Source: Halomonas sp. M20 (GTDB lineage Bacteria; Pseudomonadota; Gammaproteobacteria; Pseudomonadales; Halomonadaceae). From it: DNA of 64,000 bases. The translations under genes and the position numbers were made by a program. This document shows, piece by piece, positions 18,446 to 42,923 of this stretch. The stretch spans positions 248,001-312,000 of the forward strand of contig NZ_JACNMQ010000004.1 in the NCBI RefSeq assembly GCF_020622265.1, given 5' to 3'. Below the pieces are notes generated by a model. It ran no database searches. It was not told the DNA's origin and saw only the letters and a program-made list of their open reading frames with translations. Each line of letters begins with the position of its first letter. Position 1 is the first letter of the stretch.

Positions 18446-18458
18446 ACCATCCTCTCCG

Positions 18459-18501
18459 ATGTACCAAATTCATTCGGCGCCATGTACCAAATATGTACCA
18501 A
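18459..18501. repeat. ATGTACCAA direct repeats, candidate integrase arm sites
   Basis: ATGTACCAAAT at 18459-18469 and 18482-18492 and ATGTACCAA at 18493-18501. The last two are 11 bases apart, one DNA turn. They lie between int and the attachment site, where arm-type or excisionase sites are expected. Confidence 0.6.
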
Positions 18502-18528
18502 CCAATCAGGCAAAACGCATCAAAACCA

Positions 18529-18544
18529 CTGTAAATATGGACAG
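18529..18544. promoter_or_regulatory. Second LexA-box match, between int and dusA
   Basis: CTGTAAATATGGACAG fits CTGT-N8-ACAG with an AT-rich centre. It is 84 bases upstream of int and 33 bases upstream of dusA, so it could control either. Confidence 0.5.
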
Positions 18545-18576
18545 ATATGGAAAGCAACGCAAGAGCCTAACCCACT

Positions 18577-19617
18577 ATGAACACTGAGAATAAGCGGGTT
18601 TCACCAGATAGGACATTCTCCGTCGCGCCGATGATGGATTGGACGACCCGGGACTATCGCGTCTTCGCCCGTACGCTGACACGCCAGGCCTTGTTGTATA
18701 CGGAGATGGTCACCACCGGGGCCATTCTGCATGGAAGCCCCAGGGAGCGCTTTCTGGGCCATGACGATGTCGAGCACCCCCTTGCGTTACAGCTTGGCGG
18801 CAGCGATGCCGGCGAACTGGCGGAGTGTGCCGCCATTGCACAAGCCTGGGGCTACGACGAGGTCAATCTCAATGTGGGCTGTCCCAGCGACCGGGTTCAG
18901 AACAACCTGATCGGCGCCTGCCTCATGGCGCATCCGGACAAGGTAGCCGCTGCCGTCAAAGCAATGACCGCTGCAGTGAATATTCCCGTGACGGTGAAAT
19001 GCCGTATCGGTATCGATGCCCAAGACGAGGATGCGGATCTCGAGCGCTTCATTAACGAAGTCGCTGGGGCCGGTTGCGACACCTTCATCGTCCACGCTCG
19101 CAAGGCCTGGCTTGAAGGGCTGTCTCCCAAGGAGAACCGTGATATTCCGCCGCTGAACTATGCCCGGGTACAACGTCTCAAGGCGGCCCATCCCGAATTG
19201 CATATCGGTATCAATGGCGGCTTGAAAACCCTGGCCGACTGTCAATCCCAGCTCGAGCATGTGGATAGTGTCATGGTGGGCCGGGAGGCCTATCAGAACC
19301 CCTGGGTACTTGCGGCGGTGGATGACACCTTCTATGGCCAGCCGGGGCCGGTGCGTACCCGACACGAAGCGGCACTGGCATTGCGCCCCTATATTGCAAA
19401 GCGCTTGAGCGAAGGGGCGAAACTCAACCATGTGACTCGTCATCTTCTGGGGCTGTTCCAAGGTTGCTCCGGGGGCCGGCGTTTCCGCCGCCATCTGTCC
19501 GAGAACGCGCACCGCGAAGGAGTCGGCCTGCAGGTTTTCGACGATGCATTGGGCTTGGTCGACCAACGTGTCAGCGAGAGTTCCGAAAAGAGTAAGAACG
19601 GCCGGGTCGTGGCATGA
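18577..19617 (+). CDS. dusA: tRNA-dihydrouridine synthase A
   Basis: A 346-residue flavoprotein that reduces uridine 20/20a in tRNA. It shows the DusA start VAPMMDWTTRDYR, TEMVTTGAILHG, ALQLGGSDAGEL, the catalytic cysteine in NLNVGCPSDRVQ, HARKAWLEGLSPKENR and MVGREAYQNPW. The prophage ends in its 5' end: upstream sequence, and possibly the first 14 or so codons (MNTENKRVSPDRTF), are of phage origin while the product remains full length. Expression is therefore likely driven from phage DNA. A hairpin follows the stop. Confidence 0.96.
   Translation: MNTENKRVSPDRTFSVAPMMDWTTRDYRVFARTLTRQALLYTEMVTTGAILHGSPRERFLGHDDVEHPLALQLGGSDAGELAECAAIAQAWGYDEVNLNVGCPSDRVQNNLIGACLMAHPDKVAAAVKAMTAAVNIPVTVKCRIGIDAQDEDADLERFINEVAGAGCDTFIVHARKAWLEGLSPKENRDIPPLNYARVQRLKAAHPELHIGINGGLKTLADCQSQLEHVDSVMVGREAYQNPWVLAAVDDTFYGQPGPVRTRHEAALALRPYIAKRLSEGAKLNHVTRHLLGLFQGCSGGRRFRRHLSENAHREGVGLQVFDDALGLVDQRVSESSEKSKNGRVVA
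18619..18650. other. Probable prophage attachment site (att) in dusA
   Basis: The codons for the SVAPMMDWT block are the conserved 5' stretch of dusA at which this integrase family recombines; integrase, arm-like repeats and phage genes all lie just upstream. The second att copy would be left of base 1, so the exact core cannot be set. Confidence 0.6.
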
Positions 19618-19619
19618 CA

Positions 19620-19643
19620 CCGATACGCCAGCAGGCGTATCGG
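19620..19643. terminator. Hairpin between convergent dusA and the AstE/AspA-like gene
   Basis: Perfect 10-base stem CCGATACGCC / GGCGTATCGG with loop AGCA, 2 bases after the dusA stop. T tracts are poor on both strands; it probably serves both genes. Confidence 0.6.
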
Positions 19644-19652
19644 AACATAGCG

Positions 19653-20684
19653 CTACATCGTCTCGAGGGTCGGTTCATAATCTTGCTGGAAAGACTCTAC
19701 GGCGTTTTCTGCCTCTTCGATGGCATCGAAGCGGGCCACGTGAAATAACGCTTCCCCTTCATTGACCAACGGCAAATTGCTCATGCCGATGACGATGCCA
19801 TCGGCATTGGCGATGACTTCCCCCTCGGCGTTGCCAAACGGGTCAGCCACCAGCCCCAGCAGTTGTCCTTTAGCGACCCGCGCCCCGAGCCGCACCCGAG
19901 GTCGCAGAATGCCATCTCCAGTCGCCCTCGCCCAACTCGAGCCATTGGCGATCTCCGCGGGTCTTGATATCGCACGTTGCCGACTAGTCGGCAACATGGC
20001 TAACGTGCGCATCACCCGCAGAATGCCGCGCACCCCAGGCGCAATCGACCATTCATCGAAACGCAGCGCCTCCCCCGCTTCGTAGGTCAGAACCGGCACG
20101 CCGCGGTTCTGGGCATAGGCACGCAAGCTTCCTTCGCGGAGCTCCGCATTGAGGATCACCGGTGCCCCGAAGGCATCCGCCATGCGCGCCGTCTCGCTGC
20201 TCGAACCTAGTTGAGCGCGAATCTGAGGCAGGTTGGTGCGATGGATGGCGCCGGTGTGCAGATCGATGATATGAGTGGCCAGATCGACGATCTGCTCCCG
20301 AAAGAGTGCCGCCACCCGAGAGCCCAGCGAGCCCGTCTCGATGCCGGGAAAACAACGATTGAGATCACGCCGATCCGGTAGATACCGCGTATGCTGAACG
20401 AACCCGAAGACGTTGACGACAGGCACCGCAATCAGGGTGCCACGCAATCGGCGTAGCGCGGATGCGCGCAGCAGACGACGCACGATCTCAACACCATTGA
20501 TTTCATCCCCGTGGATGGCACTACACACCAGCAGCACCGGGCCGGGCTGACGTCCGTGCACGACCTCCACGGGTATATGCAGTGGCGCATGCGTGTAGAG
20601 CTTGGCAATAGGGACATCGATTTGAGCGCGGGTACCGGGGGCCACATGCACACCGGCGAGTTCGAAAGAGCTTCGGGCCATCAC
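19653..20684 (-). CDS. Succinylglutamate desuccinylase/aspartoacylase-family hydrolase
   Basis: A 343-residue member of the M14-like AstE/AspA family, zinc enzymes that deacylate N-acyl amino acids or related amides. The zinc-binding HGDE motif lies in SAIHGDEINGVEIVR (about residue 58), the conserved arginine in RRDLNRCFPG, and the second zinc histidine in IIDLHTGA (about 143). The C-terminal 100 residues form the beta-rich domain (RLGARVAKGQLLGLVADPFG) seen in family members. The true substrate cannot be read from sequence; the arginine-catabolic ast genes are not nearby. It begins at 20684 or at the next Met. Confidence 0.85.
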   Translation of the reverse strand: MMARSSFELAGVHVAPGTRAQIDVPIAKLYTHAPLHIPVEVVHGRQPGPVLLVCSAIHGDEINGVEIVRRLLRASALRRLRGTLIAVPVVNVFGFVQHTRYLPDRRDLNRCFPGIETGSLGSRVAALFREQIVDLATHIIDLHTGAIHRTNLPQIRAQLGSSSETARMADAFGAPVILNAELREGSLRAYAQNRGVPVLTYEAGEALRFDEWSIAPGVRGILRVMRTLAMLPTSRQRAISRPAEIANGSSWARATGDGILRPRVRLGARVAKGQLLGLVADPFGNAEGEVIANADGIVIGMSNLPLVNEGEALFHVARFDAIEEAENAVESFQQDYEPTLETM

Positions 20685-20787
20685 GGCTTCCTTGAAGAAA
20701 ACAGCGTTTTCTTTATACGCCTTGATAGCCTATATGACGACCCTTTATCCTACTTTCTTGCCCAATTCGACCGAAGCCATTAGTTAG

Positions 20788-21405
20788 TTACTGTCGAATT
20801 CCCTCGAACTCGAAGATCAATTCCACCTCATCACCCACCATGCCGTTATCGACGCCGTAGGTCATGCCCCATTCACTGCGAGACAGCGTGGTGCGCGCCG
20901 AGAGCCCGAGCGTGTACTGCTTGTGGCCAAAAGGGTATTTTTCCGCCTTGTTGAGCGTGACATCAAGAGTCACTGGATGGGTCTCGCCCAGCAGGGTGAG
21001 ATCCCCGGTCAGCGACCCTTGGGTATCGCTTTCGGCGTTGAAATCCGTGGCCTCGAAAACGATTGACGGGTACTCCTTGGCATTCAGAAAGTCGTCGCTC
21101 AGCACATGTTCATCGCGTTTTTCATGGTTGGTGAAAAGACTTGCAGCCGGTATTTCCACCCGGCCCGAAGAGAGTGCCTGGGTCTGCTCGTCGTAAACGA
21201 ACTCCCCTTCCCCTTCCAGGAACATGCCCAGCTGCTTCTGATAGCCAAGGTGATCGATCAAAAAGCCGATGGAAAAGTGCTCGGGATCGATGCGATAGGT
21301 CTGCGGCTCTGCCTGGGCCGGTAACGCCCCTAGCAGAAGGCCGCCTGCCACGGCCACTATCGATAGAGAACTGCGTAGTGCGGTAATCATTTCGAGTCTC
21401 CTCAT
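20788..21405 (-). CDS. YceI-family periplasmic lipocalin-like protein
   Basis: The 205-residue product has a signal peptide (SLSIVAVAGGLLLGALPAQA) and the YceI beta-barrel: YRIDPEHFSIGFLIDHLGY, SGRVEIPAASLFTNHEKRDEHV, DFLNAKEYPSIVFEAT, and a GDLTLLGETHPVTLDV block. YceI proteins bind isoprenoid-like lipids in the periplasm. It is 6 bases from the CDP-alcohol phosphatidyltransferase gene upstream, same strand, so the two probably form one operon, which joins a lipid-binding protein to a phospholipid-type enzyme. Confidence 0.92.
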   Translation of the reverse strand: MRRLEMITALRSSLSIVAVAGGLLLGALPAQAEPQTYRIDPEHFSIGFLIDHLGYQKQLGMFLEGEGEFVYDEQTQALSSGRVEIPAASLFTNHEKRDEHVLSDDFLNAKEYPSIVFEATDFNAESDTQGSLTGDLTLLGETHPVTLDVTLNKAEKYPFGHKQYTLGLSARTTLSRSEWGMTYGVDNGMVGDEVELIFEFEGIRQ

Positions 21406-21411
21406 AAACGG

Positions 21412-22179
21412 CTATGAACCGCTTGAAAGCGCTCTTTTCTTCTTGGTGGATAGCCAGCGTATATCCACCAAGAACGACACGGACAGCACCAATAGCGACA
21501 ACGCGGCAAGGCTGGATGCCATGCCGCTCGATACCCATGGGTGTAATCCACATAGTAGCGTCAGTGCCTGCCACACGCAGATGATTTTGCGTCGGCGACT
21601 CTCGGGTAGCGCCCGGTTGAGCCAAGGCCAGACTTTCCCGGTCAGAACGAAACCGTATCGCATCAAACCGATCGACAATACCCAGGGCCCTGCCTTGCCA
21701 AGCACGACAAGGGCCAGACACAGCACCAGAATGAAGAAGGCATCCAGCTCCATGTCGAAACGGGCCCCGAAAGCGGTCGCGGAGCGCGTCAGCCGCGCGA
21801 TCCAGCCATCCAGCCCATCGAGGATCAAGGCGCCCAATGCCAGGGTCGTCATGACGACGGCGTGTTGTGCCATGAAATCCGGGAAAAGGATTGCACCCGC
21901 CAGAATCGCAACGAGCATGCCCCGCAACAGCGTGACGCGGTTGGCCCAACCCAGCCAGCGGCGCGTGGCAGGCCAGGACTTGAGCACCATTACGACCATG
22001 ATCAGATAAACCGCACCAGCGCTAAGACGCAGCCCCACCGGTGCAGCCAGCCACAGCAACAGCCCTTCCAGCAACCCCACGAACAGAAGCGATGCGACAA
22101 AGCATTCGATCAAGGTCGATGTACTGAAACGACTATCCTGCGGGGCATTCATCACCGGCTGTCGATTACCATGCTGCAT
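21412..22179 (-). CDS. CDP-alcohol phosphatidyltransferase-family membrane protein
   Basis: The 255-residue product contains the signature D-G-x2-A-R-x8-G-x3-D-x3-D, seen as DGWIARLTRSATAFGARFDM followed by ELD (residues about 123-145), and about six hydrophobic segments. Such enzymes transfer a CDP-linked lipid to an alcohol acceptor. The first 30 residues are polar; the start may be the Met at residue 10 (MNAPQDSRF). It is divergent from the dehydrogenase gene at 22347 and shares the regulatory gap with it. The acceptor is not predictable. Confidence 0.88.
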   Translation of the reverse strand: MQHGNRQPVMNAPQDSRFSTSTLIECFVASLLFVGLLEGLLLWLAAPVGLRLSAGAVYLIMVVMVLKSWPATRRWLGWANRVTLLRGMLVAILAGAILFPDFMAQHAVVMTTLALGALILDGLDGWIARLTRSATAFGARFDMELDAFFILVLCLALVVLGKAGPWVLSIGLMRYGFVLTGKVWPWLNRALPESRRRKIICVWQALTLLCGLHPWVSSGMASSLAALSLLVLSVSFLVDIRWLSTKKKRALSSGS

Positions 22180-22248
22180 GCGGCACCCCTAGGGTCTGTT
22201 GACGTTTCATTCACGTTCGCGCTGAATGGCGATTTTGCTATATAACTT

Positions 22249-22267
22249 TTGTACAATCATTGAACAA
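22249..22267. promoter_or_regulatory. Dyad in the divergent promoter of the pterin-like cluster
   Basis: TTGTACAAT-C-ATTGAACAA: two 9-base arms matching at 8 of 9 positions around one base. It follows an extended -10-like TGCTATATA (22237-22245). A candidate operator for a dimeric regulator acting on 22347 and possibly 22179. Confidence 0.5.
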
Positions 22268-22346
22268 CAAGTTTATGCGAAGGTCGATACCTGTAGAGCA
22301 TTGTTCTACTCTACTGCTCTATTAGTGTGTTACGAAGGAAAACGCC

Positions 22347-23351
22347 ATGTCCTCCATTACCGCTCAAGCCTTCTGGACGCTGGCCCCGGGGCATGGTGCC
22401 CTGCGCGATGAGAGTCTCTCGCCTCCTGGTCCCGAGGAAGTGTTGGTTCATAGTCGCTACAGTGCGATCAGTCGCGGCACTGAAAGCCTTGTCTTCAATG
22501 GACAGGTGCCGGCAAGTGAACGTTCACGCATGCGCGCCCCTTTTCAACAGGGCGACTTCCCTGGCCCGGTCAAATATGGCTATGCCAACGTCGGCATCGT
22601 GGAACAGGGCCCGGAACATTTGCTGAACCGCGCCGTCTTTTGTCTGTACCCCCATCAGGATCGCTATGTCGTACCCCAGGACGCAGTGCTGGTACTTCCA
22701 TCCGGCTTACCCTTCGAGCGCGCGGTGCTCGCTGCCAACATGGAAACCGCCATCAACGGCCTTTGGGATGCAGGCCCACGGGTGGGCGATCGCATCAGCG
22801 TCATCGGCGCCGGCGTCGTCGGTGCGCTGATCGCCTACCTATGTGCGCGGATTCCCGGCACTCGAGTGCAGCTGATCGATATCGCACCCCAGCGTCAGAC
22901 ACTCGCGGATGCGCTGGAGGTTCCTTTCTGTCTCCCTCATCAGGCAGAAGGCGACAACGACCTGGTGATCCATGCCAGTGGCTCACCGGATGGGCTTCGC
23001 ACCGGGCTTGAATTGGCCGGTAAAGAAGCCACCTTGATTGAAATGAGCTGGTTCGGCCAGAAGGAAGTGAGTCTGCCGCTGGGAGAAGCGTTTCACTCCC
23101 GCCGCCTGACGCTGCGCGCAAGCCAGGTGGGTACCGTGGCACCGGCACGCAGCGCCCGCTGGGACTATCGGCGCCGCCTGAGCCTAGCTCTCGACCTGCT
23201 GCAGGACGCACGCCTGGACGCACTCATCAGCGGGGAAAGCGATTTCAAGGATCTCCCGGAATCGATGCCCCGCTTGTTCGAGCATGCCAACGATGTACTC
23301 TGCCATCGTGTGGCTTACCCACAAACGGATAACTTTGCACAAGGAAGATAG
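22347..23351 (+). CDS. MDR-family dehydrogenase without structural zinc ligands
   Basis: The 334-residue protein is a medium-chain dehydrogenase/reductase: N-terminal GroES-like part ([21 protein letters not shown]), then a Rossmann domain with [13 protein letters not shown] near residue 153 and ID at the end of the second strand. The catalytic-zinc Cys and the four-Cys lobe of alcohol dehydrogenases are not seen, as in BchC-like members. ISRGTE at the active-site region is typical of that branch. It leads the cluster running to 29527 and ends 4 bases before the next start. Confidence 0.85.
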
Positions 23352-23355
23352 TGTC

Positions 23356-23754
23356 ATGTTCAGCTTGACCGTTCGCGATCATTTCATGATCGCTCACAGT
23401 TTCAACGGCGAGGTCTTCGGCCCGGCCCAGCGCCAGCACGGCGCTACCTATGTGGTGGACGTCACCTTCAAGCGCCCGAACCTGGATGATGACGACCTGG
23501 TCATCGACATCGGTCTAGCCAGCACCACCCTTCACGCCATACTCGATGAGTTCAACCTGCGCAACCTGGATGACATCGAAGAGTTCAAGGGCCGCAATAC
23601 CACCACGGAGTTCATGGCCAAGGTCGTGTTCGATCGTCTTGCCCGAGCCATTCAGGAAGGCCGCTTGGGGCCTGCCGCCAGCGGACTGAGCAATATGAGC
23701 GTGACCCTGCATGAATCGCACATTGCCTGGGCAAGCTACGAGGGAACGCTATGA
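23356..23754 (+). CDS. 6-pyruvoyl-tetrahydropterin synthase homologue, degenerate active site
   Basis: The 132-residue protein has the T-fold outline of PTPS/Que[10 protein letters not shown] at the N-terminus, [12 protein letters not shown] for the usual HGHNY strand, TTTEFMAK for the substrate-anchoring PTAEN-like loop and VTLHES near the end. Of the three zinc histidines, H14 and H28 are present but the third is Ala30. The catalytic Cys four residues before H28 is missing and the Asp-His pair reads Asp64-Glu65. The usual lyase chemistry is therefore doubtful and another reaction on a pterin-like substrate is likely. It is coupled to the glycosyltransferase gene by an ATGA overlap. Confidence 0.82.
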
Positions 23755-24815
23755 GTCATCACCTGACGTTCATAGTGGCCGGCGACCCTGAACAGCTGAC
23801 CGGCGGCTATCTCTATGACGCTCGAATAATTGAAGCGTTGCGTCAGCAGGGGTGGCGCGTCGAGGTCATCGGGCTCGAGGGGCGATTCCCGGAGCCGGAT
23901 GCAACCGCCGCCGAAGCCATGGAAGAAGCACTGGCCAAACAGCCCGACGGCGCCCGGATCGTCATCGACGGTCTGGCCATGGGCGGCTTGCCCGAGGTGA
24001 TTGCCAGGCACGCCAAGCGCCTCGAATTGACGGCTTTGATTCACCACCCGCTTGCGGACGAAACCGGACTCGACCCGGCTCAGCGCTCTCGCTTCACGCT
24101 AAGCGAGACTCGGGCGTTGACCGCCGTCGACAACGTCATCGCCACCAGCGTGTTTACCGCCCATCGCCTTGCGGATTTCAACGTCGATGCGGAGCGCATC
24201 GCCGTCATCGAGCCCGGCGTCGAGCCGGCGCCACTGGCGGAACGCGATGACAGGAGCGCATTGACAGGCCAACACCTGCTATGCGTGGCCACGCTCATTC
24301 CGCGCAAGGGGCAGGACGTATTGATCGAGGCCCTGGCCCGTCTCTCTGAATACGACTGGCAGTGCGATCTGATCGGCGCTCTGGATCGCGATCCGGGTTT
24401 TGTCGAAAAGCTTACCGACCTCATCCAGAATCACGGCCTCAAGGATCGTATCCGGCTGCTTGGCGAACAGTCATCGGAAGCACTGGGACAGGCCTATCGC
24501 AACGCGGATCTCTTCGTTTTGCCCTCTTTTTACGAGGGTTACGGCATGGTGATCAGCGAAGCTCTAGCCCGGGGTTTACCTGTCATCACAACCACCGGGG
24601 GCGCCCTGGCGCATACCCTGCCGGAAACCGCGGGGTTGAGCGTGCCGCCCAGGGACACCCAGGCACTGGCCCAGGCACTCAAGCGCTGGCTCGATGAGCC
24701 CGAGCTGCGCGAGGGTCTGCGCCAGGGTGCCCGGCAAGCGCGAGAAAATCTCACCGACTGGCAAACCGCCGGCGACGCCTTCGCCAAGGCGCTAATGCGG
24801 GGCGGGATCTCATGA
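23751..24815 (+). CDS. GT4-family glycosyltransferase
   Basis: A 354-residue retaining glycosyltransferase with a GT-B fold. The C-terminal donor domain contains [20 protein letters not shown] (about residue 180) and the motif [20 protein letters not shown] with E-x7-E (about 258-277). The N-terminal part ([20 protein letters not shown]) is the acceptor side. In this cluster it would attach a sugar to a pterin- or pyrimidine-like acceptor. Start and stop overlap the neighbouring genes by four bases each, so it is tightly co-translated. Confidence 0.9.
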
Positions 24816-25711
24816 CCCAACCGGCGCCGGGCAGCATCTTCGATACCGGCTGGCTGCGCCTTCGCGAGAGCGCCGACGCCGCTGCCCGGAGTACGGCATT
24901 GCCCGAACGGGCCAGGCGCTACCTAGTCCAGCGGCAACGGGGTGAGCGCTGTCTATCGCTTGTCGATCTAGGCTGTGGTGGCGGCAGCAATCTGCGTTTT
25001 CTTGCGCCACGGCTGCCCGGCCCCCAATCCTGGCACTTGATCGATCACGATGCCGGCCTGCTCGATGAGGCCCTCGCCACGGCAACGCATCTTCGCGATG
25101 TCAGCGGTGAGCCCATTGCGGTTCAATCGGCGTGCAAGAGTCTTGTGGATGTTGAAGCCGACTGGTTTACGGGGTGCGATCTGGTCTGCGCCTCGGCGCT
25201 TTTCGACCTGGTGTCCAGTGACTGGCTGGAACGGCTGGCAGCAGCCTGCGCGGCGTCGAAAACCGCAGTGCTGTTTACCCTGAGCGTGAACGGCGACTGG
25301 GGCTTTCTCGACGGTGACGGACAAGCTCAAGACCACCCCAGCGATCGCTGGGTGCGGGATCAGCTCATCGCCCATCAGCAGCGAGACAAGGGCTTTGGCA
25401 TCGCCCTGGGCAGCCACGCCCCCCAGGCCTTGGTCCAAGCGTTCGCTCAGCGCGGCTATCAGGTAGAAAGCGCTCCGAGTCCTTGGCGGTTGTCTCCCGG
25501 CCATGCTGACACCCAGGCACTGGGCCACAGCCTGATCGAAGGCTGGGCCGGCGCTGTCCATGAGCAGTCGCCCAACGAGCAGCAGCGACTGGAACGCTGG
25601 CTGATACACCGCCTGTCGCAACTCAATGCTGGCGCATTGGGGCTGGAAGTGGGTCATATGGATTTTTTCGCGTATCCGCCGGCATCAGATTCAACGGGTG
25701 ATAACCTATGA
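24812..25711 (+). CDS. Class I SAM-dependent methyltransferase
   Basis: A 299-residue protein with motif I VDLGCGGGSNLRFLAPRL (about residue 50), an acidic residue ending strand 2 (WHLIDHDAGLLDEA) and a strand-4 region DLVCASALFDLVSSDWL. These mark a Rossmann-type methyltransferase. The target is unknown; the gene overlaps the glycosyltransferase and the membrane-protein gene by four bases each, so a role in tailoring the cluster's product is likely. Confidence 0.88.
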   Translation: MTQPAPGSIFDTGWLRLRESADAAARSTALPERARRYLVQRQRGERCLSLVDLGCGGGSNLRFLAPRLPGPQSWHLIDHDAGLLDEALATATHLRDVSGEPIAVQSACKSLVDVEADWFTGCDLVCASALFDLVSSDWLERLAAACAASKTAVLFTLSVNGDWGFLDGDGQAQDHPSDRWVRDQLIAHQQRDKGFGIALGSHAPQALVQAFAQRGYQVESAPSPWRLSPGHADTQALGHSLIEGWAGAVHEQSPNEQQRLERWLIHRLSQLNAGALGLEVGHMDFFAYPPASDSTGDNL

Positions 25712-27426
25712 GATTGCCCCGCGCCCATCTATGGCTTCGCCTGCTGGCAAGCCTGGTGCTGTTGGGTGTACTCGCACTATGGCTGGACACCTCCGCCATC
25801 ATTGCGGAAATTCGAGGGCTATCGCTCTACTGGGTTCTATTGGGACTGATATTGACCCTGCCCCAGGTAGCAATCTCCGCCTGGCGCTGGCGCCTTACCG
25901 CTCGCCTGCTGGATATCCGCCTGCCCTGGCAGGCTGCCTTGGGCGACTACTATCTGGCGACCTTTCTCAACCAGGTACTGCCCGGCGGCGTCATGGGGGA
26001 TGCCGCCCGCGCCTGGCGTCATGCTCGCGCCAGCGGTCAACGGGCGGCGGCGCTGCGGGCGGTCATCATCGAGCGCACCTCCGGGCAGCTGGTGTTAGCG
26101 GCCATGGCTTGCGCCACATTGTTCTCGCCGATCTGGCAGGCGCCGTTGAGTGCATTCTCGCGCGAATCGCTGTGGGGTGCTGGCGTTCTGCTCGGAGGCC
26201 TCTTTTTGCTGTTGATGTTTGGACTGCTATTCAAGCGCATCCTCCGACGGCCCCTCTCTTTGTTCAAGCGCGTATTTGCAGGATTTTTTACCGGTTTAGG
26301 CCGCGATCTGCATCGCTCCCTGTTGAGCCAGCAGGCATGGCCCCGGCAGCTCTTGGGCTCGGCGCTGGTGGTGTGCAGTTATGTAGCGGTGTTCGTCTGC
26401 GCCGCCCAAGCCATTGGCAGCGAGTTACCGCTAACCACGCTATTGGCGCTGATTCCTCTGGTGCTGCTGGCCATGGCCATTCCGCTCTCCGTGGCGGGCT
26501 GGGGTCTGCGGGAAAGCGCGGCTGCGTTGGTATGGGTCGGTGCCGGCCTGTCGCCGGCTCAGGGCGTGGCAATATCCGTGGCCTATGGCCTACTGGTGCT
26601 GATCTCGAGCCTGCCCGGTGCGCTGTTTCTAATACGCCGTCGTTCGCGGCGGTTCGCTGGCGGTGAGCATCAGATCGAACAGGGTGTCCTCACCGCAGGG
26701 AAAGGTTCTGCACCGGGGGCGCAGCGCCTGATCGAGAGTCGCAATGGGTGTCAGGTCGAGACCGGGACGCCCGGAGCCAATCAACAGCGGTGCGATCAGC
26801 ATATGCAGGCGATGCAGTACGCCGGCTTCGAGAAAGCGCGAGATGGTCACCCCGCCGCCTTCGATCAATACGCGCTCGAGCCCTCGCGCGCTCAGCATGT
26901 CGAGCACGCTGCCCGGATCGAATCCCTGTGCGCCCAGGGGCAGCACGATACGCTCCACATGACTACCGAAGACGCCGGCCACAGAAGCGCCCTCACCGAT
27001 CACATGCAATGTCGGCGCATCACTGGACTGGAAAACATGACAGGCGCTGTCGAGTCGCCCTCGCGGATCGAGCACCACCCGCACCGGATGCCGGCCCGAG
27101 ACATGGCGCACGTTGAGCTGGGGGTTGTCCGCCTCGACGGTGCCGGCGCCGACCATGACTGCGTCCATCAGGGCGCGCAGGCGGTGCAGGTGAATGCGGC
27201 TTTCAAGCCCGTTGATGTAATGAGATGCGCCGGTCACCGTGGCGATTCGACCGTCCAGACTCTGACCCAGCTGAGCGATCGCCAGGGGCTCGGTTCGCGC
27301 CACCAATGGCAACAGATTGTCGAACAGGCGACGCCCCTCGTCGATGATGCCCGTATTGCAGGTCCAGTCACCGCCCCTGATGATCTGTACGCCCAGTCGC
27401 TCGTCGACAAAAGGCCGAGACAATGA
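25708..27426 (+). CDS. Flippase-like UPF0104/AglD-type membrane protein with long 3' overhang
   Basis: Residues 1 to about 315 form an integral membrane protein with 7-8 hydrophobic segments. It carries features of the lysylphosphatidylglycerol synthase/UPF0104 membrane family: AALGDYYLATFLNQVLPGGV, RAWRHAR and AVIIERTSGQLVLA, and near the end PLSVAGWGLRESA. The last transmembrane part ends LFLIRRRSRRF around 26655. The frame has no stop there and runs on for about 255 codons opposite the reductase gene, reading like antisense. Either the natural stop was lost (or a base is wrong) or the protein truly has a long tail. Likely role: moving or exporting the glycosylated product. Confidence 0.72.
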   Translation: MRLPRAHLWLRLLASLVLLGVLALWLDTSAIIAEIRGLSLYWVLLGLILTLPQVAISAWRWRLTARLLDIRLPWQAALGDYYLATFLNQVLPGGVMGDAARAWRHARASGQRAAALRAVIIERTSGQLVLAAMACATLFSPIWQAPLSAFSRESLWGAGVLLGGLFLLLMFGLLFKRILRRPLSLFKRVFAGFFTGLGRDLHRSLLSQQAWPRQLLGSALVVCSYVAVFVCAAQAIGSELPLTTLLALIPLVLLAMAIPLSVAGWGLRESAAALVWVGAGLSPAQGVAISVAYGLLVLISSLPGALFLIRRRSRRFAGGEHQIEQGVLTAGKGSAPGAQRLIESRNGCQVETGTPGANQQRCDQHMQAMQYAGFEKARDGHPAAFDQYALEPSRAQHVEHAARIESLCAQGQHDTLHMTTEDAGHRSALTDHMQCRRITGLENMTGAVESPSRIEHHPHRMPARDMAHVELGVVRLDGAGADHDCVHQGAQAVQVNAAFKPVDVMRCAGHRGDSTVQTLTQLSDRQGLGSRHQWQQIVEQATPLVDDARIAGPVTAPDDLYAQSLVDKRPRQ

Positions 27427-27516
27427 CCAGTCATGATCGCGGGCAAGACATGTCAGATGCCAGGCTGCGTCAATGTCGAGGCTGGGAACGCTCATCAAAC
27501 TGCTCTCGCTTATCAT
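26629..27516 (-). CDS. Stand-alone RibD-type (dihydrofolate reductase-fold) reductase
   Basis: The 295-residue product carries the reductase half of RibD: LGQSLDGRIATVTGASHYIN (about residue 83), the HRLRALMDAVMVGAGTVEAD block, NPQLNVR, and VLIEGGGVTISRFLEAGV near the end. There is no cytidine-deaminase-like domain; instead an 80-residue N-terminal part of unknown kind. Stand-alone reductases of this fold act in the fungal and archaeal riboflavin routes, where the ribosyl side chain is reduced before deamination. It is divergent from the cyclohydrolase gene and convergent with the membrane gene. Confidence 0.87.
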   Translation of the reverse strand: MISESSLMSVPSLDIDAAWHLTCLARDHDWSLSRPFVDERLGVQIIRGGDWTCNTGIIDEGRRLFDNLLPLVARTEPLAIAQLGQSLDGRIATVTGASHYINGLESRIHLHRLRALMDAVMVGAGTVEADNPQLNVRHVSGRHPVRVVLDPRGRLDSACHVFQSSDAPTLHVIGEGASVAGVFGSHVERIVLPLGAQGFDPGSVLDMLSARGLERVLIEGGGVTISRFLEAGVLHRLHMLIAPLLIGSGRPGLDLTPIATLDQALRPRCRTFPCGEDTLFDLMLTASEPPRTTAY

Positions 27517-27587
27517 TTGAACGGGGATGAACGACTATGATGCTTAGCCCCATGCGCCAGCACAACCTAGCAATACAAGGAGATGTC

Positions 27588-28703
27588 ATGCATCAGGTTG
27601 AACGAGCCATTTTCGATCTTCGTCGCGGGCTCCCGGTAATATTGCGCGACGATGAACAGGATGTTCTTGTCCAGCCCATCGAGAGTCTCGACGACGGTAT
27701 TCTGGAGCATCTTATCGCAACCGCGGGAGAAGCCCCGGGGCTGGTATTAAGCCGCCATCGTCTGGCACTGCTTGGCAAATCGATCGAGCATGAGACCGCC
27801 CGTTTGCCGTTGTCTCCGGCGATGCTTGCAACCGAACGGCTAAACGAACTCGCCTTTAGCGTCGATCCAGAGAGCGTTTCACAGGATATCGTGTCGGCCA
27901 GTCGTGCCGATCATGCCGCATTGACCCTGATGCGTCGGGCACTGCTGATACCCGCCGCGCTTACCGCCCGAGTAGCCAAGGCGTCTCGTGAAACCGTCGA
28001 GGCATTGATCGGCCAAGGAGAATTGCTCTCAGTAACGGTATCGGATGCCGAGCGCTGTTTCGAAGCGGCCAATGGACTGCTCAAGCGCGTCAGTGAAGCA
28101 CAGGTTCCGCTGGCAGAAGCCATCGAAAGTCGTTTCATCCTGTTCCGCGAACCAGATGGCCTGCGGGAGCACGTCGCTATCGTCATCGGCGACACCGCCG
28201 CCTGGCAGAACGCGGTACCTCTACGTATGCACTCTGCCTGCCTGACTGGCGATCTGTTTGCCAGCCTGCGCTGCGACTGCGGTGAACAGCTACGGAACGC
28301 AGTAGCGGATATCGATGACATGGGTGGCGGCGTATTGCTCTACCTGGCCCAGGAAGGACGCGGCATCGGCCTTGCCAACAAGCTGCGCGCCTATGCCATG
28401 CAAGATGTGGGGCTCGATACCCTGGACGCGGATCAGCACCTGGGCTTTGGTGAGGACGAACGTCGTTACAGCGTGGCAGTAGATATGCTGGCGGCCCTGG
28501 ATATTCGCCAGGTACAACTTCTGACCAACAACCCCATCAAGATCGCGGCGTTGACTGCGGGCGGCATCGAAGTTACCGAGCGCCAGGCACTTTACGGAAG
28601 CCTGACGGAGCAGAACTACCGCTATCTGAATGCCAAGGCCAAACGTGCCGGCCATATGCTCGATGGGGTGCTGGAAAACTACGAGCGGCTTGGGGGTGAA
28701 TGA
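27588..28703 (+). CDS. GTP cyclohydrolase II homologue with degenerate RibB half
   Basis: The 371-residue protein has an intact cyclohydrolase II domain: HSACLTGDLFASLRCDCGEQ with the three zinc cysteines, LLYLAQEGRGIGL and KLRAYAMQDVGLDT, and LLTNNPIKIAALTAGGIEV. The final VERVP of RibA reads VTERQA. The N-terminal 180 residues resemble RibB, but the acidic DDED-RENEGDL loop is replaced by DDEQDVLVQPIE, so dihydroxybutanone-phosphate synthase activity is unlikely. The ATG at 27588 has AAGGAG 5 bases ahead. It would convert GTP to the diaminopyrimidine entry compound of the cluster. Confidence 0.88.
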   Translation: MHQVERAIFDLRRGLPVILRDDEQDVLVQPIESLDDGILEHLIATAGEAPGLVLSRHRLALLGKSIEHETARLPLSPAMLATERLNELAFSVDPESVSQDIVSASRADHAALTLMRRALLIPAALTARVAKASRETVEALIGQGELLSVTVSDAERCFEAANGLLKRVSEAQVPLAEAIESRFILFREPDGLREHVAIVIGDTAAWQNAVPLRMHSACLTGDLFASLRCDCGEQLRNAVADIDDMGGGVLLYLAQEGRGIGLANKLRAYAMQDVGLDTLDADQHLGFGEDERRYSVAVDMLAALDIRQVQLLTNNPIKIAALTAGGIEVTERQALYGSLTEQNYRYLNAKAKRAGHMLDGVLENYERLGGE

Positions 28704-29527
28704 GAGCGAGCCATGTGAAAATCCGCGATGTCCATAACACGGGCCTCCTCGAAAAGCGCGGCCAAATGCGTGGCATAATGCTCGACCAGCCGGGCGCCGA
28801 GTTCGGCGTCGGCGAGTCGGGCATTGCCTACTACCCCACCCGGATGCAGATCCTCCGCCAACCAGGCAAAGGCTGCCTCTCCCTCCGGCCCCAGCCGATC
28901 TCCCCGAGCCGCCATTGCTTCACCCCGGGAAGGCGGGTGATCGACATGTTCCCGACGCACCTTGTGCGGCGCCAGATGAAGCATCATCGCGGTTTCAAGC
29001 GCGCCCCCATGCAACCCATGACGTAGCTCCTCTAAGGGGAGCGCTTCGGACGGTATCGAAAAGCGCATGTAATGCGCCTTGACCACTAGCATGCCCCAGC
29101 GCTTACGCAGGTTGAGAGCGGCAATGTCCGCCATCGCCTTGTTGCCGCCGTGGCTGTTGAGCAGCACCAGACGGCGAACGCCGGCACGAGCAATGGAATC
29201 GCCGTAGGCTTCGATCACCGCAATGGCGGTTTCCGGAGGCAAGCTCAACGTGCCGGGGTAGCTTGCGTGTTCCTGGCTTGCGCCCACCGCCAGGGCCGGC
29301 AATGCAAGTAGAGGAAAAGTACCGGGCAGCTTGCTCATGGCCGCCTGTAGAAGCCCCAGGCCGATATCCAAATCCGTAGAGAGCGGCAAGTGCGCGCCGT
29401 GCTGCTCGATGGCCGCCAGGGGCAATACCGCAACGCTATCCTGGCGGAGGGTTCGTTCGAGTTCCGGCGAACTCAGCGCTTGCCATTCGCGAGACCAATC
29501 GCGGGAAAGCTTCGTGGGGTCTGGCAT
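28679..29527 (-). CDS. Creatininase-family amidohydrolase
   Basis: A 282-residue metal-dependent amidohydrolase with PLAAIEQHGAHLPLSTDLDI (metal-binding E, H and D, about residues 35-54), NSHGGN (about 123) and HGGALETAMML (about 172). Besides creatinine amidohydrolase the family includes the archaeal ArfB deformylase, which removes the formyl group from the cyclohydrolase product in flavin and F420 biosynthesis. Next to a GTP cyclohydrolase II homologue, that role fits better than creatinine use. Its 3' end overlaps the cyclohydrolase gene by 25 bases, tail to tail. Confidence 0.85.
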   Translation of the reverse strand: MPDPTKLSRDWSREWQALSSPELERTLRQDSVAVLPLAAIEQHGAHLPLSTDLDIGLGLLQAAMSKLPGTFPLLALPALAVGASQEHASYPGTLSLPPETAIAVIEAYGDSIARAGVRRLVLLNSHGGNKAMADIAALNLRKRWGMLVVKAHYMRFSIPSEALPLEELRHGLHGGALETAMMLHLAPHKVRREHVDHPPSRGEAMAARGDRLGPEGEAAFAWLAEDLHPGGVVGNARLADAELGARLVEHYATHLAALFEEARVMDIADFHMARSHSPPSRS

Positions 29528-29745
29528 GATAACTCCAGTTGATGGGTACTTGTCGGCAGACTTACCTGAATATTAGACAACATGCCCACCATCAGTCTTG
29601 TTTATATGAGATTGACCCATCTCAAGGCTGGCAACCTACTTTGTAATAAAGTAAAAACAACGCCTTTGTAGAATGTTTTTTTACCTGTTCTTTTCCAGTC
29701 CCATGCCTTGGCAGAATTGCTGCGAAATTCCTGGAGTTCGATCGG

Positions 29746-31305
29746 ATGCTGGAAGTCATTTGTCTTACCTTTGCCCTGGTATTGGGCTTGATTGCCCGCG
29801 GTTTCGGCCTACCGCCTTTGATCGGCTTTCTCGGCGCGGGCTTTGCAATCAATTCTCTCGGCGACCTTGTGGCTCTGCCTCCCTCGACGCCAGAGGTACT
29901 CCACTACATGGCCCATCTGGGTGTGCTGCTGTTGCTGTTCAGCGTCGGCCTCAAGCTCAAGCTCAAGAGCCTCGTTCAGCCCGAGGTCATCGGCGGGGGG
30001 CTGGCGCACTTCGTGGTGACAGTGAGCGTGTTCGCGATGGGGCTTCACTGGATTGCGGATATCGACTGGACCAACGCGCTGATTCTGGCCATCGCTCTGG
30101 CCTTTTCCAGTACAGTGCTCGCCGCCAAAAGCCTTGAGGAGCGCCGGGAGCTGCGCTCCTTCCATGGGCGGGTGGCGATAGGCATTCTGGTCATTCAAGA
30201 CCTGATCGCCCTGGGCGTGCTGGTGTTTTCCATTGGCCAGGCCCCCTCACCCTGGGCCCTTCTACTGCTCGGATTGCCCTTGCTGCGTCCGGTACTCCAT
30301 CGCCTGATCGATGCCTGCGGTCACGACGAACTGCTGATGATGATGGGTCTGGTGCTGGCACTTGTCATTGGTGGCGCCGGCTTCACGACCCTGGGGCTAT
30401 CCAGCGAAGTAGGCGCTCTGGTGCTGGGAACGCTGATCTCACAGCACCCCCGCGCTCAGGAAATCGGCAAATCCCTGTGGGCGCTCAAGGAGCTGTTCCT
30501 GGTCGGCTTCTTTCTCGAGATCGGCATGTCCGGCTTGCCGGATTGGCAATCCTTCGGTTTTGCTCTTGCCTTCGTCGTCTTGCTGCCGCTGAAAGCAGTG
30601 CTATTCTTTTTTCTACTCTTGCTGTTCCGCCTGCGGGCACGTAATGCCTTCGAGGCCTCGGTCAATCTCAGCAGTTACAGCGAATTCGGCCTAATCGTTG
30701 CTGCTGCGCTGGTGCCGGATGCGCTGGTAGGGCTTGCCATGGCGGTGGCCCTGTCATTTCTTGTGGTGTCACCCCTGCAGCGCAAGGCGCACACCCTGTT
30801 CGGTCAAATCGAACCCTGGCTTACCCGCTTCGAGACCCACAACTGGCATCCGGACGAACAGCCCGCCTCACTGGGGGACGCCCAGGTATTGGTCATCGGT
30901 ATGGGGCGCACCGGTACCGCGACTTACGATCGCCTGCGCACAGACGCCATCGCCGTGATCGGTCTCGACGCGGATCCCAGCCGCGTCGAGAGCCATACTG
31001 CCGAAGGGCGGCATATCGTCTATGCGGATGGAGAGGACATCAGTTTCTGGAACGCGCTCAATCTCGACGGCATCAAGGCGGTGGTTCTGACCCTGCCGGA
31101 TGCGCAATCCAAGATCTTTGCAACGCAACAATTGCGCAGCCATGGCTTTACGGGGGCCATCGTTGCGCATAGCCTCTATCAGGACGAGGCGCAATCGATC
31201 CGTCTTGCTGGGGCCGATCAGACCTATCTGACCATGCACGAGGCAGGCCTGGGCCTTGCAGAACATGTGAGACAGGATGAGAACATTAAACGGCACATCT
31301 CCTGA
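29746..31305 (+). CDS. CPA2-type cation/proton antiporter with TrkA-N domain
   Basis: The 519-residue product has about 12 membrane segments of the Na+/H+ exchanger fold (residues 1-350), including the cation-site region LAFSSTVLAAKSLEERRELR. A cytoplasmic RCK-type Rossmann domain follows (VLVIGMGRTGTATYDRL, then VIGLDADPSR). It belongs to the KefB/YbaL branch and probably exchanges K+ or Na+ for protons, fitting a halophilic lifestyle. The next gene begins inside its last 29 bases. Confidence 0.92.
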   Translation: MLEVICLTFALVLGLIARGFGLPPLIGFLGAGFAINSLGDLVALPPSTPEVLHYMAHLGVLLLLFSVGLKLKLKSLVQPEVIGGGLAHFVVTVSVFAMGLHWIADIDWTNALILAIALAFSSTVLAAKSLEERRELRSFHGRVAIGILVIQDLIALGVLVFSIGQAPSPWALLLLGLPLLRPVLHRLIDACGHDELLMMMGLVLALVIGGAGFTTLGLSSEVGALVLGTLISQHPRAQEIGKSLWALKELFLVGFFLEIGMSGLPDWQSFGFALAFVVLLPLKAVLFFFLLLLFRLRARNAFEASVNLSSYSEFGLIVAAALVPDALVGLAMAVALSFLVVSPLQRKAHTLFGQIEPWLTRFETHNWHPDEQPASLGDAQVLVIGMGRTGTATYDRLRTDAIAVIGLDADPSRVESHTAEGRHIVYADGEDISFWNALNLDGIKAVVLTLPDAQSKIFATQQLRSHGFTGAIVAHSLYQDEAQSIRLAGADQTYLTMHEAGLGLAEHVRQDENIKRHIS

Positions 31306-32374
31306 TGATATTTCAGGGTCTATCCACCCTCGCCGTGAAGGTGAAGGCCCGTTGCCAGGAGAATGGATTGAGGAGCGCAGATTGAATCCCGAAGCACCGC
31401 CAGTTCCACGCTGCGACGAAGAGCATCTACGTCGTGTCGGAGTCGAGATCGAGTTTGCCGCCATTGCGCCATTGAGAGCGGCACAACTGGTGCAGGAGCA
31501 TTTTGGCGGCAGTCTTGAGCAATTCGATCCGCATCGCTTCAAGATCCTCGACAGTCGCTGGGGCAATTTCACCATCGAGCTCGATTCGAAGTACGTCCAT
31601 CCGGATCACCAGGTGCTCGAAGAGAATACTCCCGATGATAGCGAGTGGCATCATCTGCGCCGGGAGATTCATCAGCGTTCGCGCCGGCTGCTGGGTGACG
31701 CGGTGGCAGGCATCGTGCCTACGGAAATCGTGTGTCCGCCCATTCCTTGGCTTGCGCTCAACGAACTCGACAGCTTGTTCGATGCGCTGCGTCTGGAAGG
31801 CGCTCGGGATACCCGAGACAGCCTGCTGTACGGCTTCGGCCTGCATCTCAATCCCGAGGTACCTTCCCTCGAGGCCGATAGTCTACTGGCGCACCTGCGC
31901 GCCTACATGATTCTGGCGGCCTGGCTGCGCGAAGAGATCGATATCGACATCACCCGTCAGATACTGCCCCATGCCAATCCCTTCACCAAGGAGTATGCGC
32001 TGAAAGTGCTGGATGCCGCCTACGCCCCGGATCTCGACACGTTGATCGAGGACTATCTTACCGCCAACCCGTCACGCAACCGTGAGCTCGACCTGCTGCC
32101 ATTGTTTGCCTATCTGCGCCCCGACCACCCCAACCCGCTGCTTGCAGGTGAGTTGGTCAGCCCCCGCCCCACCTTTCATTATCGTCTGCCCAATGCGCAG
32201 CTATCCCAACCGGACTGGAGCGCGGTGTGCGAATGGAATCGCTGGGTCGAGGTGGAACGCCTGGCGGCGGATACCGAGCTCCTGGCCGAACGCAGCGCAA
32301 CCTATGTCGACCACTACCGGCGCTCCCACATGCCTCAGTGGCTGGACCGTCTCAAGGAGTGGATGAAGGAGTAG
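31277..32374 (+). CDS. Putative amidoligase (glutamine-synthetase-like fold)
   Basis: A 365-residue protein of the amidoligase family related to gamma-glutamylcysteine ligases. The signature RRVGVEIEFAAI is near residue 52; then come FTIELDSKYV and EIVCPPIPW, and a late histidine/acidic segment. Such enzymes are predicted to make amide bonds in small metabolites or peptides using ATP. It overlaps the antiporter gene and is followed 2 bases later by a class I glutamine amidotransferase, the typical partner. Substrates are unknown. Confidence 0.85.
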   Translation: MRTLNGTSPDDISGSIHPRREGEGPLPGEWIEERRLNPEAPPVPRCDEEHLRRVGVEIEFAAIAPLRAAQLVQEHFGGSLEQFDPHRFKILDSRWGNFTIELDSKYVHPDHQVLEENTPDDSEWHHLRREIHQRSRRLLGDAVAGIVPTEIVCPPIPWLALNELDSLFDALRLEGARDTRDSLLYGFGLHLNPEVPSLEADSLLAHLRAYMILAAWLREEIDIDITRQILPHANPFTKEYALKVLDAAYAPDLDTLIEDYLTANPSRNRELDLLPLFAYLRPDHPNPLLAGELVSPRPTFHYRLPNAQLSQPDWSAVCEWNRWVEVERLAADTELLAERSATYVDHYRRSHMPQWLDRLKEWMKE

Positions 32375-32376
32375 TC

Positions 32377-33075
32377 ATGGTACGCCCAAGGATCGGCATT
32401 ACCACCTCGGATCATAAAAGCCTGCTAGCCTGGTGGTGCGACTGGCTGGCAGTCTGGCGCGCCGGCGGCAAGCCGGTACGTCTATCTCCCTCGCGCCCCA
32501 TCCCTGACGATCTCGATGGGCTGGTGATTGGTGGCGGTGATGATATCGGCGCCCATCTTTATGGCGGCGAAGTACAGCTCGATGTGCGGGTCGATCCGCA
32601 GCGAGATACCCTGGAGCTATCGCTGTTGAAACGACTGCTGCCCGATGACTGCCCGGTATTGGGAATCTGCCGGGGCGCTCAGATCATCAATGTACATCTG
32701 GGCGGCTCACTGGTCAGCGACATCTACACGTCCTACACCCACATCAAGAAGCAGCGCACGGTACTGCCGCGCAAGACTGTCGACATCACCATTGGTAGCC
32801 GTCTGCACGACCTGCTCGAGGTCAGCTGGTGTCAGGTGAATAGCCTGCATCATCAAGCCATCAATCGTGCAGGCCGTGGCATCGACATCGTGGCCAAGGA
32901 TCGAGATGGGCTGGTTCAGGGAATCGAAAGCCGCAATCATCGCTTCTTGATTGGCGTGCAATGGCACCCGGAATTCCTGATCTTCAATCGCCCCCAGCAG
33001 CGCTTGATTCGTGGGCTAGTCGACGCGGCCAGCGATCATGCCGAAAGCCGCAGGCCCCTTGGCGAAGAAAGTTGA
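32377..33075 (+). CDS. Class I glutamine amidotransferase/PuuD-like hydrolase
   Basis: The 232-residue protein has the GATase-1 triad: cysteine in LGICRGAQIINVHLGG (about residue 93), histidine and glutamate in GVQWHPEF (about 199). It resembles PuuD-type hydrolases that split gamma-glutamyl amides (RIGITTSDH start). The ATG at 32377 sits 2 bases after the amidoligase stop, with AAGGAG 5-10 bases ahead. The pair may ligate and later release a gamma-glutamyl or similar amide. Confidence 0.88.
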   Translation: MVRPRIGITTSDHKSLLAWWCDWLAVWRAGGKPVRLSPSRPIPDDLDGLVIGGGDDIGAHLYGGEVQLDVRVDPQRDTLELSLLKRLLPDDCPVLGICRGAQIINVHLGGSLVSDIYTSYTHIKKQRTVLPRKTVDITIGSRLHDLLEVSWCQVNSLHHQAINRAGRGIDIVAKDRDGLVQGIESRNHRFLIGVQWHPEFLIFNRPQQRLIRGLVDAASDHAESRRPLGEES

Positions 33076-42839: not shown

Positions 42840-42923
42840 CGGCTTGGTGGAGATGGCGGCTTTTTTGGAACAAAAAAGGTAACAACTTTGCCAAGTCCGT
42901 GTGCTTTGACTTGTTATAGGGCT

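Follow-up and report, generated by a model that had tools for sequence, protein, structure and literature searches.

In a 64,000-nucleotide stretch of the Halomonas sp. M20 genome (contig NZ_JACNMQ010000004.1, positions 248,001 to 312,000; ‘the window’ below, with positions counted from its first letter), a gene cluster containing a GTP cyclohydrolase II (RibA) appears to channel a precursor of vitamin B2 into a sugar-decorated, possibly membrane-bound compound. We give an even chance to the reading that this is a dedicated biosynthetic operon, which leaves the riboflavin pathway at the first intermediate and has spread between lineages. The cluster also holds an open reading frame (ORF) opposite its ribD gene that, judging by codon statistics, appears to be a translational bridge kept by selection. 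With at least 582 relatives of one of its proteins in a species-level genome collection and one crystal structure among them, the cluster marks a large blank in bacterial metabolism, and the anatomy of its genes points to testable first steps (RibA, then reduction free of deamination) and to the lipid fraction.

Pfam and family-model searches find all eight adjacent genes of an earlier, sequence-only reading at 22347-29527, with the families it had stated. On the plus strand lie a BchC-like oxidoreductase of the medium-chain dehydrogenase/reductase (MDR) family (22347..23351; TIGR01202, 2.4e-14, below its cut-off), a T-fold protein resembling 6-pyruvoyl-tetrahydropterin synthase (PTPS) and belonging to the SCO6650/3D7J subfamily (23356..23754; PF01242, 6.7e-25), a GT4 family glycosyltransferase (23751..24815; PF00534, 1.2e-35), a class I S-adenosylmethionine-dependent methyltransferase (24812..25711; weak Pfam methyltransferase matches), a flippase-like protein (25708..27426; PF03706, 3.5e-39, residues 13-300, the domain reaching to about 26610) and RibA with a degenerate N-terminal half (27537..28703; PF00925, 1.3e-53), whose better and probable start is the ATG at 27588, preceded by AAGGAG. 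On the minus strand lie a RibD_C reductase without deaminase (26629..27516; PF01872, 1.6e-36) and a creatininase-family metallohydrolase (28679..29527; PF02633, 2.2e-65), which meets ribA tail to tail with a 25-bp overlap. Three of the five plus-strand junctions are ATGA overlaps (PTPS/glycosyltransferase, glycosyltransferase/methyltransferase, methyltransferase/flippase) and join four genes, as had been claimed. Two minus-strand genes were absent from the earlier account: a CDP-alcohol phosphotransferase (21412..22179; PF01066), divergent from the operon, and a YceI-like periplasmic protein (20788..21405; Pfam PF04264, 3.7e-41), a peripheral member.

The gene set recurs as a unit in other genomes. 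In a search with the MDR protein over 369 genomes of the class, own genome included, matches at E 1e-60 or better came from the own genome and 16 of the 368 others; at 1e-3, matches came from 80/369 genomes and were mostly ordinary dehydrogenases. The PTPS-like gene stands beside the MDR gene in 15 of the 16 loci of the E 1e-60 set, the exception being L039 (L-numbers denote fetched loci of other genomes), which has the MDR and phosphotransferase genes only. The degenerate PTPS motif was also sought in the species-level collection, where at least 595 stretches matched and at least 582 encode relatives; the counts that follow refer to the best-scoring 80 of these relatives, which are not a random sample. 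The PTPS-like gene, present in all 80 loci, is accompanied by MDR in 78, the glycosyltransferase in 78, the methyltransferase in 77 and the CDP-alcohol phosphotransferase in 68, and further by the flippase (60), RibD_C (58), RibA (46), creatininase (43) and YceI (26). Gene order is nearly fixed. The phosphotransferase gene is divergent and directly upstream of MDR in 65 of the 68 loci that have it, and it also lies inside or directly beside the operon in differing layouts (L038, L043, L048, L083). The set is found in four phyla, with Gemmatimonadota (2 rows) and Acidobacteriota (1 row) represented by metagenome bins only. Such ordered recurrence is far beyond chance adjacency, and it bears out the sequence-only reading, which had named conserved co-occurrence as a check on its proposal.

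The distribution of the PTPS-like subfamily is common but patchy: at E 1e-20 its profile matches 124/201 genomes of the family and 19/299 of the phylum, own genome included. In a tree of 78 MDR rows, for which the bootstrap had not settled, 23 Actinomycetota fall on one side of a branch (100/99) and the Halomonadaceae are scattered: Kushneria, for example, pairs with a Rhodospirillaceae bin (96/68) and Salinicola with an Endozoicomonas (100/80); the rows of the bin and of Endozoicomonas are long and their placement is unsure. Spread of the cluster between lineages is likely but not proven. The nearest named relative among the fetched loci comes from an uncultured Halomonas (L056; PTPS-like protein 92%, shared flanks), and closer records may exist.

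The proposed branch point follows from the two riboflavin-type enzymes. Residue tallies here and below set aside L052-L055, which are more distant MDR relatives, and sequences shorter than 0.6 of the query length (0.5 for RibA). Cluster RibA keeps three Cys, a Tyr (Y269) and an Arg in 52/52 sequences, which matches the three zinc Cys, catalytic Arg and Tyr of GTP cyclohydrolase II, the roles of Arg and Tyr being those generally ascribed to them; by these residues the enzyme looks active. In work by Spoonamore in 2006, this Tyr is said to go with full hydrolysis and no formyl product. The RibB half is indeed degenerate, its kinship to RibB being weak (hhalign probability 17% over 67 residues), and the protein matches the PRK08815 model over its full length at 351.7 bits, below the cut-off of 464. 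As for the reductase, the Pfam search gave no deaminase match, in agreement with the earlier reading. Where BsRibG has Lys151 (by our count along the alignment, Lys163 in the tagged chain 2B3Z), its family has Gln in 53, His in 11 and Ser in 7 of 71 rows and Lys in 0, with Gln in this window. In aligned structures the same position holds Lys in three RibD chains and Asn in two diaminopyrimidine reductases (2AZN, 6P8C), and 6P8C is the best PDB match. Lack of a deaminase domain together with lack of this Lys characterizes the archaeal-type diaminopyrimidine reductases, and work on BsRibG reportedly found that Lys151 enforces a deaminated substrate. The cluster shares with the archaeal and fungal riboflavin order the proposed reduction of the RibA product by a deaminase-free RibD_C with a non-lysine specificity position. 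Unlike that pathway, it has Gln, His or Ser in place of the Asn of 2AZN and 6P8C, adds glycosylation, methylation and membrane genes, and is extra to a housekeeping pathway.

Housekeeping riboflavin genes lie elsewhere in the 3.89 Mb genome, which is assembled in 15 contigs (C7, C8 and C9 are three of these). GTP cyclohydrolase II matches fall at C9:6851, at C8:55063 and in the cluster. The first is a 242-aa open frame with all zinc Cys; the C8 protein (about 55-57 kb), in which a RibB half is joined to a cyclohydrolase half lacking the zinc Cys, we take to be of RibBX type; it stands beside ribD. The C8 RibD is complete, having Lys within the motif LKMAMSIDG and a deaminase read by eye, and it and the cluster gene are the only RibD_C matches in the genome. 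With an intact RibA at C9 and a full RibD at C8, we rejected the cluster as the housekeeping riboflavin set, and the earlier claim of a dedicated cluster, distinct from ordinary riboflavin or queuosine synthesis, holds on this count, a separate rib set having been the other check named for it.

The remaining core enzymes are less easily assigned. The profile of the PTPS-like protein matches PDB 3D7J (‘uncharacterized protein SCO6650’) at E 2.7e-58, and true PTPS structures come behind at 4e-7 and weaker. Two zinc His and Glu85 are kept in 96/96 sequences; the Cys position is Ala in 96/96, the third zinc His is Ala in 95/96 and Thr in 1/96, and the Asp-His pair is replaced (alignment read by eye). 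If these residues have the roles generally ascribed to them, as we assume, the protein retains the T-fold and the pterin-anchoring Glu that it shares with QueD and PTPS, along with two of three zinc His, and lacks the catalytic Cys, the full zinc site and the Asp-His pair. We rejected PTPS or QueD catalysis on these residues, which makes the PTPS-like step of the earlier reading unsafe. The protein scores 45.4 bits against the QueD model (cut-off 89.25), and none of the QueD/PTPS motifs given in PMC5041015 (CxxxHGH, CxxxxxHGH, ExxHGH) occurs in it. Another PTPS-family protein of the same genome lies on C7, with two matches in one 283-aa frame. The Streptomyces loci L127 and L129 have a PTPS-like gene with none of the partners found, possibly a second context for this protein. 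The MDR protein has S-x-G-[TS]-E in 95/95 rows, without the zinc-site Cys pattern, at what is presumably the place of a zinc Cys. The creatininase-family protein keeps the metal residues E41, H43, D52, H126, H173 and E178 in 48/48 sequences, as its superfamily requires. It scores 17.6 bits against the ArfB model (cut-off 180) and 107.8 against MftE (cut-off 172). We rejected it as the ArfB-type deformylase that had been proposed on this low score and on the kept Tyr of RibA.

These assignments suggest a pathway, which we set out step by step with differing firmness. There are strong grounds to expect that RibA opens GTP to 2,5-diamino-6-ribosylamino-4(3H)-pyrimidinone 5′-phosphate. RibD_C would then reduce the ribose directly, with no prior deamination, as the archaeal and fungal reductases do. 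Direct reduction would keep the 2-amino-4-oxo ring face that is held by Glu in T-fold proteins. The third step is a guess: the ring or side chain might be reworked by the T-fold protein and by the BchC-like MDR, and the creatininase-family enzyme, where present, might hydrolyse an amide or a ring C-N bond. The families of the next two enzymes suggest that a sugar and a methyl group would be added. Gene content suggests for the last step that the CDP-alcohol phosphotransferase would attach a lipid or some other phospho-alcohol to the polyol-phosphate moiety and that the flippase-like protein would move the product across the membrane; certain phosphotransferase families use polyol-phosphate acceptors, which ribityl phosphate resembles. 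In loci without RibA and RibD_C, housekeeping enzymes could supply the precursor. Of the pathway order in the sequence-only reading, the core of a dedicated product survives, deformylation is not supported, the PTPS-like step is unsafe, and the phosphotransferase, present in 68/80 loci, had been overlooked.

Several observations weigh against the proposal of a dedicated, riboflavin-derived operon with a membrane-bound product. The constant core is only MDR-PTPS-glycosyltransferase-methyltransferase, and locus L132 has just these four. Among the 80 loci the phosphotransferase was not found in 12, the flippase in 20, RibD in 22, RibA in 34 and creatininase in 37, counts to which contigs cut short and divergent copies that escape detection may contribute. 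The 12 loci that share the most frequent Streptomyces layout yielded no RibD. The lysine argument for RibD_C leans on the interpretation of BsRibG Lys151 given above. The family matches of the phosphotransferase are all weak and far below cut-offs (archaetidylinositol-phosphate synthase and PssA in 23/23 members, PgsA in 20, PIP synthase in 18), and PssA, whose acceptor is serine, is among them. Its model gave no Foldseek match at 0.001 or better; the nearest fold is PgsA (best E 0.019, TM 0.52/0.69). A literature search found no product or activity for any cluster member.

The nature of the product is where the principal alternative arises. With both a phosphotransferase and a flippase present, a soluble glycoside without a lipid is no more likely than a lipid-linked product, and on gene content the product is probably linked to a lipid. 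The phosphotransferase has the motif DxxDGxxAR(x8)GxxxDxxxD of its superfamily at all six positions, with D121, D124, R129, G138, D142 and D146 kept in 82/82 rows. It shares this full catalytic motif with PgsA and archaetidylinositol-phosphate synthase, which are among its best family and fold matches, and it differs from known CDP-alcohol phosphotransferases in falling far below every curated cut-off. Some of the weak family matches are synthases with polyol-phosphate acceptors; since PssA uses serine, they do not single out one acceptor. A pterin or pyrimidine glycoside that is soluble and secreted, with phosphotransferase and flippase serving export or another task and no lipid involved, is a possible but not favored explanation. 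It would suit five loci (L086, L089, L104, L105, L121) that have MDR-PTPS-glycosyltransferase-methyltransferase-RibD without phosphotransferase or flippase in the fetched DNA, but these genomes may have both genes elsewhere, and the two are present in 68/80 and 60/80 loci, the first with its motif intact throughout. The most specific version of the lipid-linked proposal, a membrane lipid or cofactor of a new class whose GTP-derived, glycosylated and methylated 2-amino-pyrimidine or pterin head group is linked through its polyol phosphate to a lipid by the phosphotransferase and flipped outward, all encoded with a translational bridge opposite ribD, is speculative and, taken as a whole, rather unlikely. 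The methyltransferase model (pLDDT 93.9) gave 815 fold matches at E 0.001 or better (best TM 0.56/0.64); the 50 listed of these are methyltransferase-fold enzymes of mixed function and therefore offer no substrate hint. A membrane protein with a weak sulfatase-family domain lies near the cluster in three unrelated genomes (L038:1628-3238, L111:3569-5197, L113:3931-5619) and may belong to the same pathway.

Two further alternatives fare worse. In a tetrahydropterin cofactor pathway, RibD_C would be a dihydropterin reductase like dihydrofolate reductase and the T-fold protein would act on the product of GTP cyclohydrolase I. Dihydrofolate reductase chains do appear weakly among the RibD_C matches (E 3.9e-6 and weaker), and the T-fold Glu for pterins is kept, but the associated cyclohydrolase is of type II, which does not yield a pterin, the PTPS catalytic residues are lost, and the best solved relatives of the reductase are diaminopyrimidine and RibD reductases; we consider this pathway improbable. 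That the cluster is a backup or regulated second set of ribA and ribD with unrelated neighbors is scarcely credible: RibA does look fully active by its residues, but the set lacks a deaminase match, has a degenerate RibB half, coexists with separate RibA and RibD genes elsewhere in the genome, is tightly linked to glycosyltransferase, methyltransferase and MDR, and has no known FMN riboswitch, as an Rfam search of 18000-32500 gave no match.

The closest known relatives of the proposed operon are in Streptomyces coelicolor, where SCO6650 belongs to the same PTPS subfamily as the cluster protein. We know of no pathway or product for SCO6650-SCO6655, only a structure and enzyme assays; SCO6650 is reported to be without zinc and the catalytic triad and inactive as PTPS, and SCO6655 is reported to make the deformylated product. 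The 12 Streptomyces loci have the order phosphotransferase (minus strand), MDR, PTPS, glycosyltransferase, methyltransferase, flippase, creatininase (minus strand), RibA, with RibA five genes after PTPS, matching the numbering from SCO6650 to SCO6655. In PMC2853524, SCO6655 is listed as GTP cyclohydrolase II and stands among genes whose expression is opposed to the flux predicted for them (-0.61); the majority of these genes go up in stationary phase. A literature search for the cluster or its genes turned up no account of it, which is not proof of absence in print.

The layout of the operon yielded the second finding. The flippase frame has no stop after its Pfam domain, which ends at residue 300, and, in a feature that the earlier account had not noticed, stays open to 27426, codon-aligned opposite ribD, over about 26630-27426 on the plus strand; it ends 161 bases before the likely ribA start. 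To the earlier loci 40 were added, loci were kept only where both genes are complete and convergent, and near-identical ribD copies were dropped (87 to 82). The fused open frame occurs in 43 of these 82 distinct convergent loci, this window included: 42 of 57 Halomonadaceae loci under at least seven genus labels, plus one weak Streptomyces case (L130). The frame covers 0.88-1.00 of ribD in the 43 loci; in the remaining 39 its coverage never exceeds 0.19, and no locus is intermediate. In the bridged part of the 43 loci, none of the 1974 Leu/Ser codons is TTA, CTA or TCA, where codon usage in a few neighboring genes predicts 190.8 (aligned gene parts only; 195.0 when over-long glycosyltransferase and some over-long methyltransferase frames are used), and control A-ending codons number 389 against 446.3. 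In the 39 loci without the fused frame, such antisense-stop codons number 128 against 131.3.

Since the fused loci are open by definition, sorting the loci by ribA gives the better test, which covers the 3′ four fifths of ribD. The 61 loci with ribA behind ribD have 5 antisense-stop codons in 2099 against 169.9 expected, and 56 of them are stop-free; the 21 loci without ribA have 96 in 712 against 83.9, and 2 are stop-free. Control codons number 364 against 444.0 with ribA and 229 against 231.7 without, the ribA group being low here too (0.82), so that general codon bias explains a small part. Where at least three stops are expected, 22/22 loci with ribA and 0/8 without are stop-free. RibA lies behind 41/43 fused loci by a distance rule, and behind 43/43, plus 18/39 of the others, by a looser one. 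Five unfused loci with ribA (L044, L068, L075, L128, L175) have one or two stops against 0.2-0.8 expected. By single loci, the chance of an open frame in the fused class goes down to 4.9e-8 (L076) and is 0.004 for this window alone. The other two antisense frames of ribD have 5.4 and 7.9 stops per gene.

Openness also occurs without fusion. In some of the unfused, stop-free loci with ribA, a separate plus-strand ORF opposite ribD starts at the flippase stop through ATGA in L058 and L063 and TTGA in L091, L096 and L124; in L148-L150 its ATG follows a GGAGG-like site next to that stop, and in L148, L149, L150 and L096 its end overlaps the start of ribA by four bases. Both junctions of such an ORF have the look of translational coupling. 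The frame appears to be kept open either as a flippase extension or as an ORF with a small gap, and ribosomes could travel along the mRNA as far as ribA. Most simply, continued translation opposite ribD would prevent ribA from being silenced by Rho or by decay. If true, the bridge would show how translation of a transcript can be maintained past a gene on the opposite strand, and that the avoidance of stop codons in one gene can serve as a sign of selection acting on its complement. In PMC7154746, the noncontiguous menaquinone operon of S. aureus likewise has an opposite-strand gene inside a same-direction series; there the antisense stretch is described as an internal untranslated region, whereas here a frame stays open across it.

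There are two other possible explanations for the open frame. It could encode a functional C-terminal domain of the flippase, as an opening over 88-100% of ribD in 43 loci would allow. Third-base conservation in ribD exceeds that of its neighbors for Leu/Ser codons only (+0.080); its other codon sets (+0.015 and +0.033) lie inside the neighbor range, and all other gene and codon sets span -0.031 to +0.041, figures that were computed with over-long glycosyltransferase and some over-long methyltransferase frames. Conservation limited to Leu/Ser codons indicates that openness is kept, as stop avoidance, and not the encoded amino acids. No Pfam match lies beyond residue 300, and in several loci the open frame is unjoined to the flippase, which together leave a C-terminal domain quite unlikely. 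An artefact of codon bias in GC-rich genomes, without selection, is highly improbable: GC-rich members do expect few stops anyway (0.4 in L072), loci that are related do not count as independent (in more distant pairs the third positions are mostly reshuffled) and 13 of the 39 unfused loci are also stop-free, but all 13 have ribA, the split is the same when ribA, and not openness, is the sorting criterion, and neighboring genes of the 43 loci in the same reading are stop-free in only 3-8 cases (MDR 4, glycosyltransferase 6, methyltransferase 8, RibA 3, creatininase 5).

Other features of the window lie outside the cluster. An amidoligase (PF12224) adjoins a peptidase C26/glutamine amidotransferase at 31277-33075, and the amidoligase is common to L056. 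A phage-type integrase (PF00589) at 17375-18445 has its start 131 bases before a gene at 18577 that we named dusA-like from reading the sequence. Integrative elements associated with dusA are known, and such an element appears to lie to the left of this gene. Finally, 42267-46190 has 39-44% G+C between stretches of 66% and 52% and encodes a 1088-aa protein; it is probably an acquired island, and the long ORF just before it is one we take to be SbcC-like.

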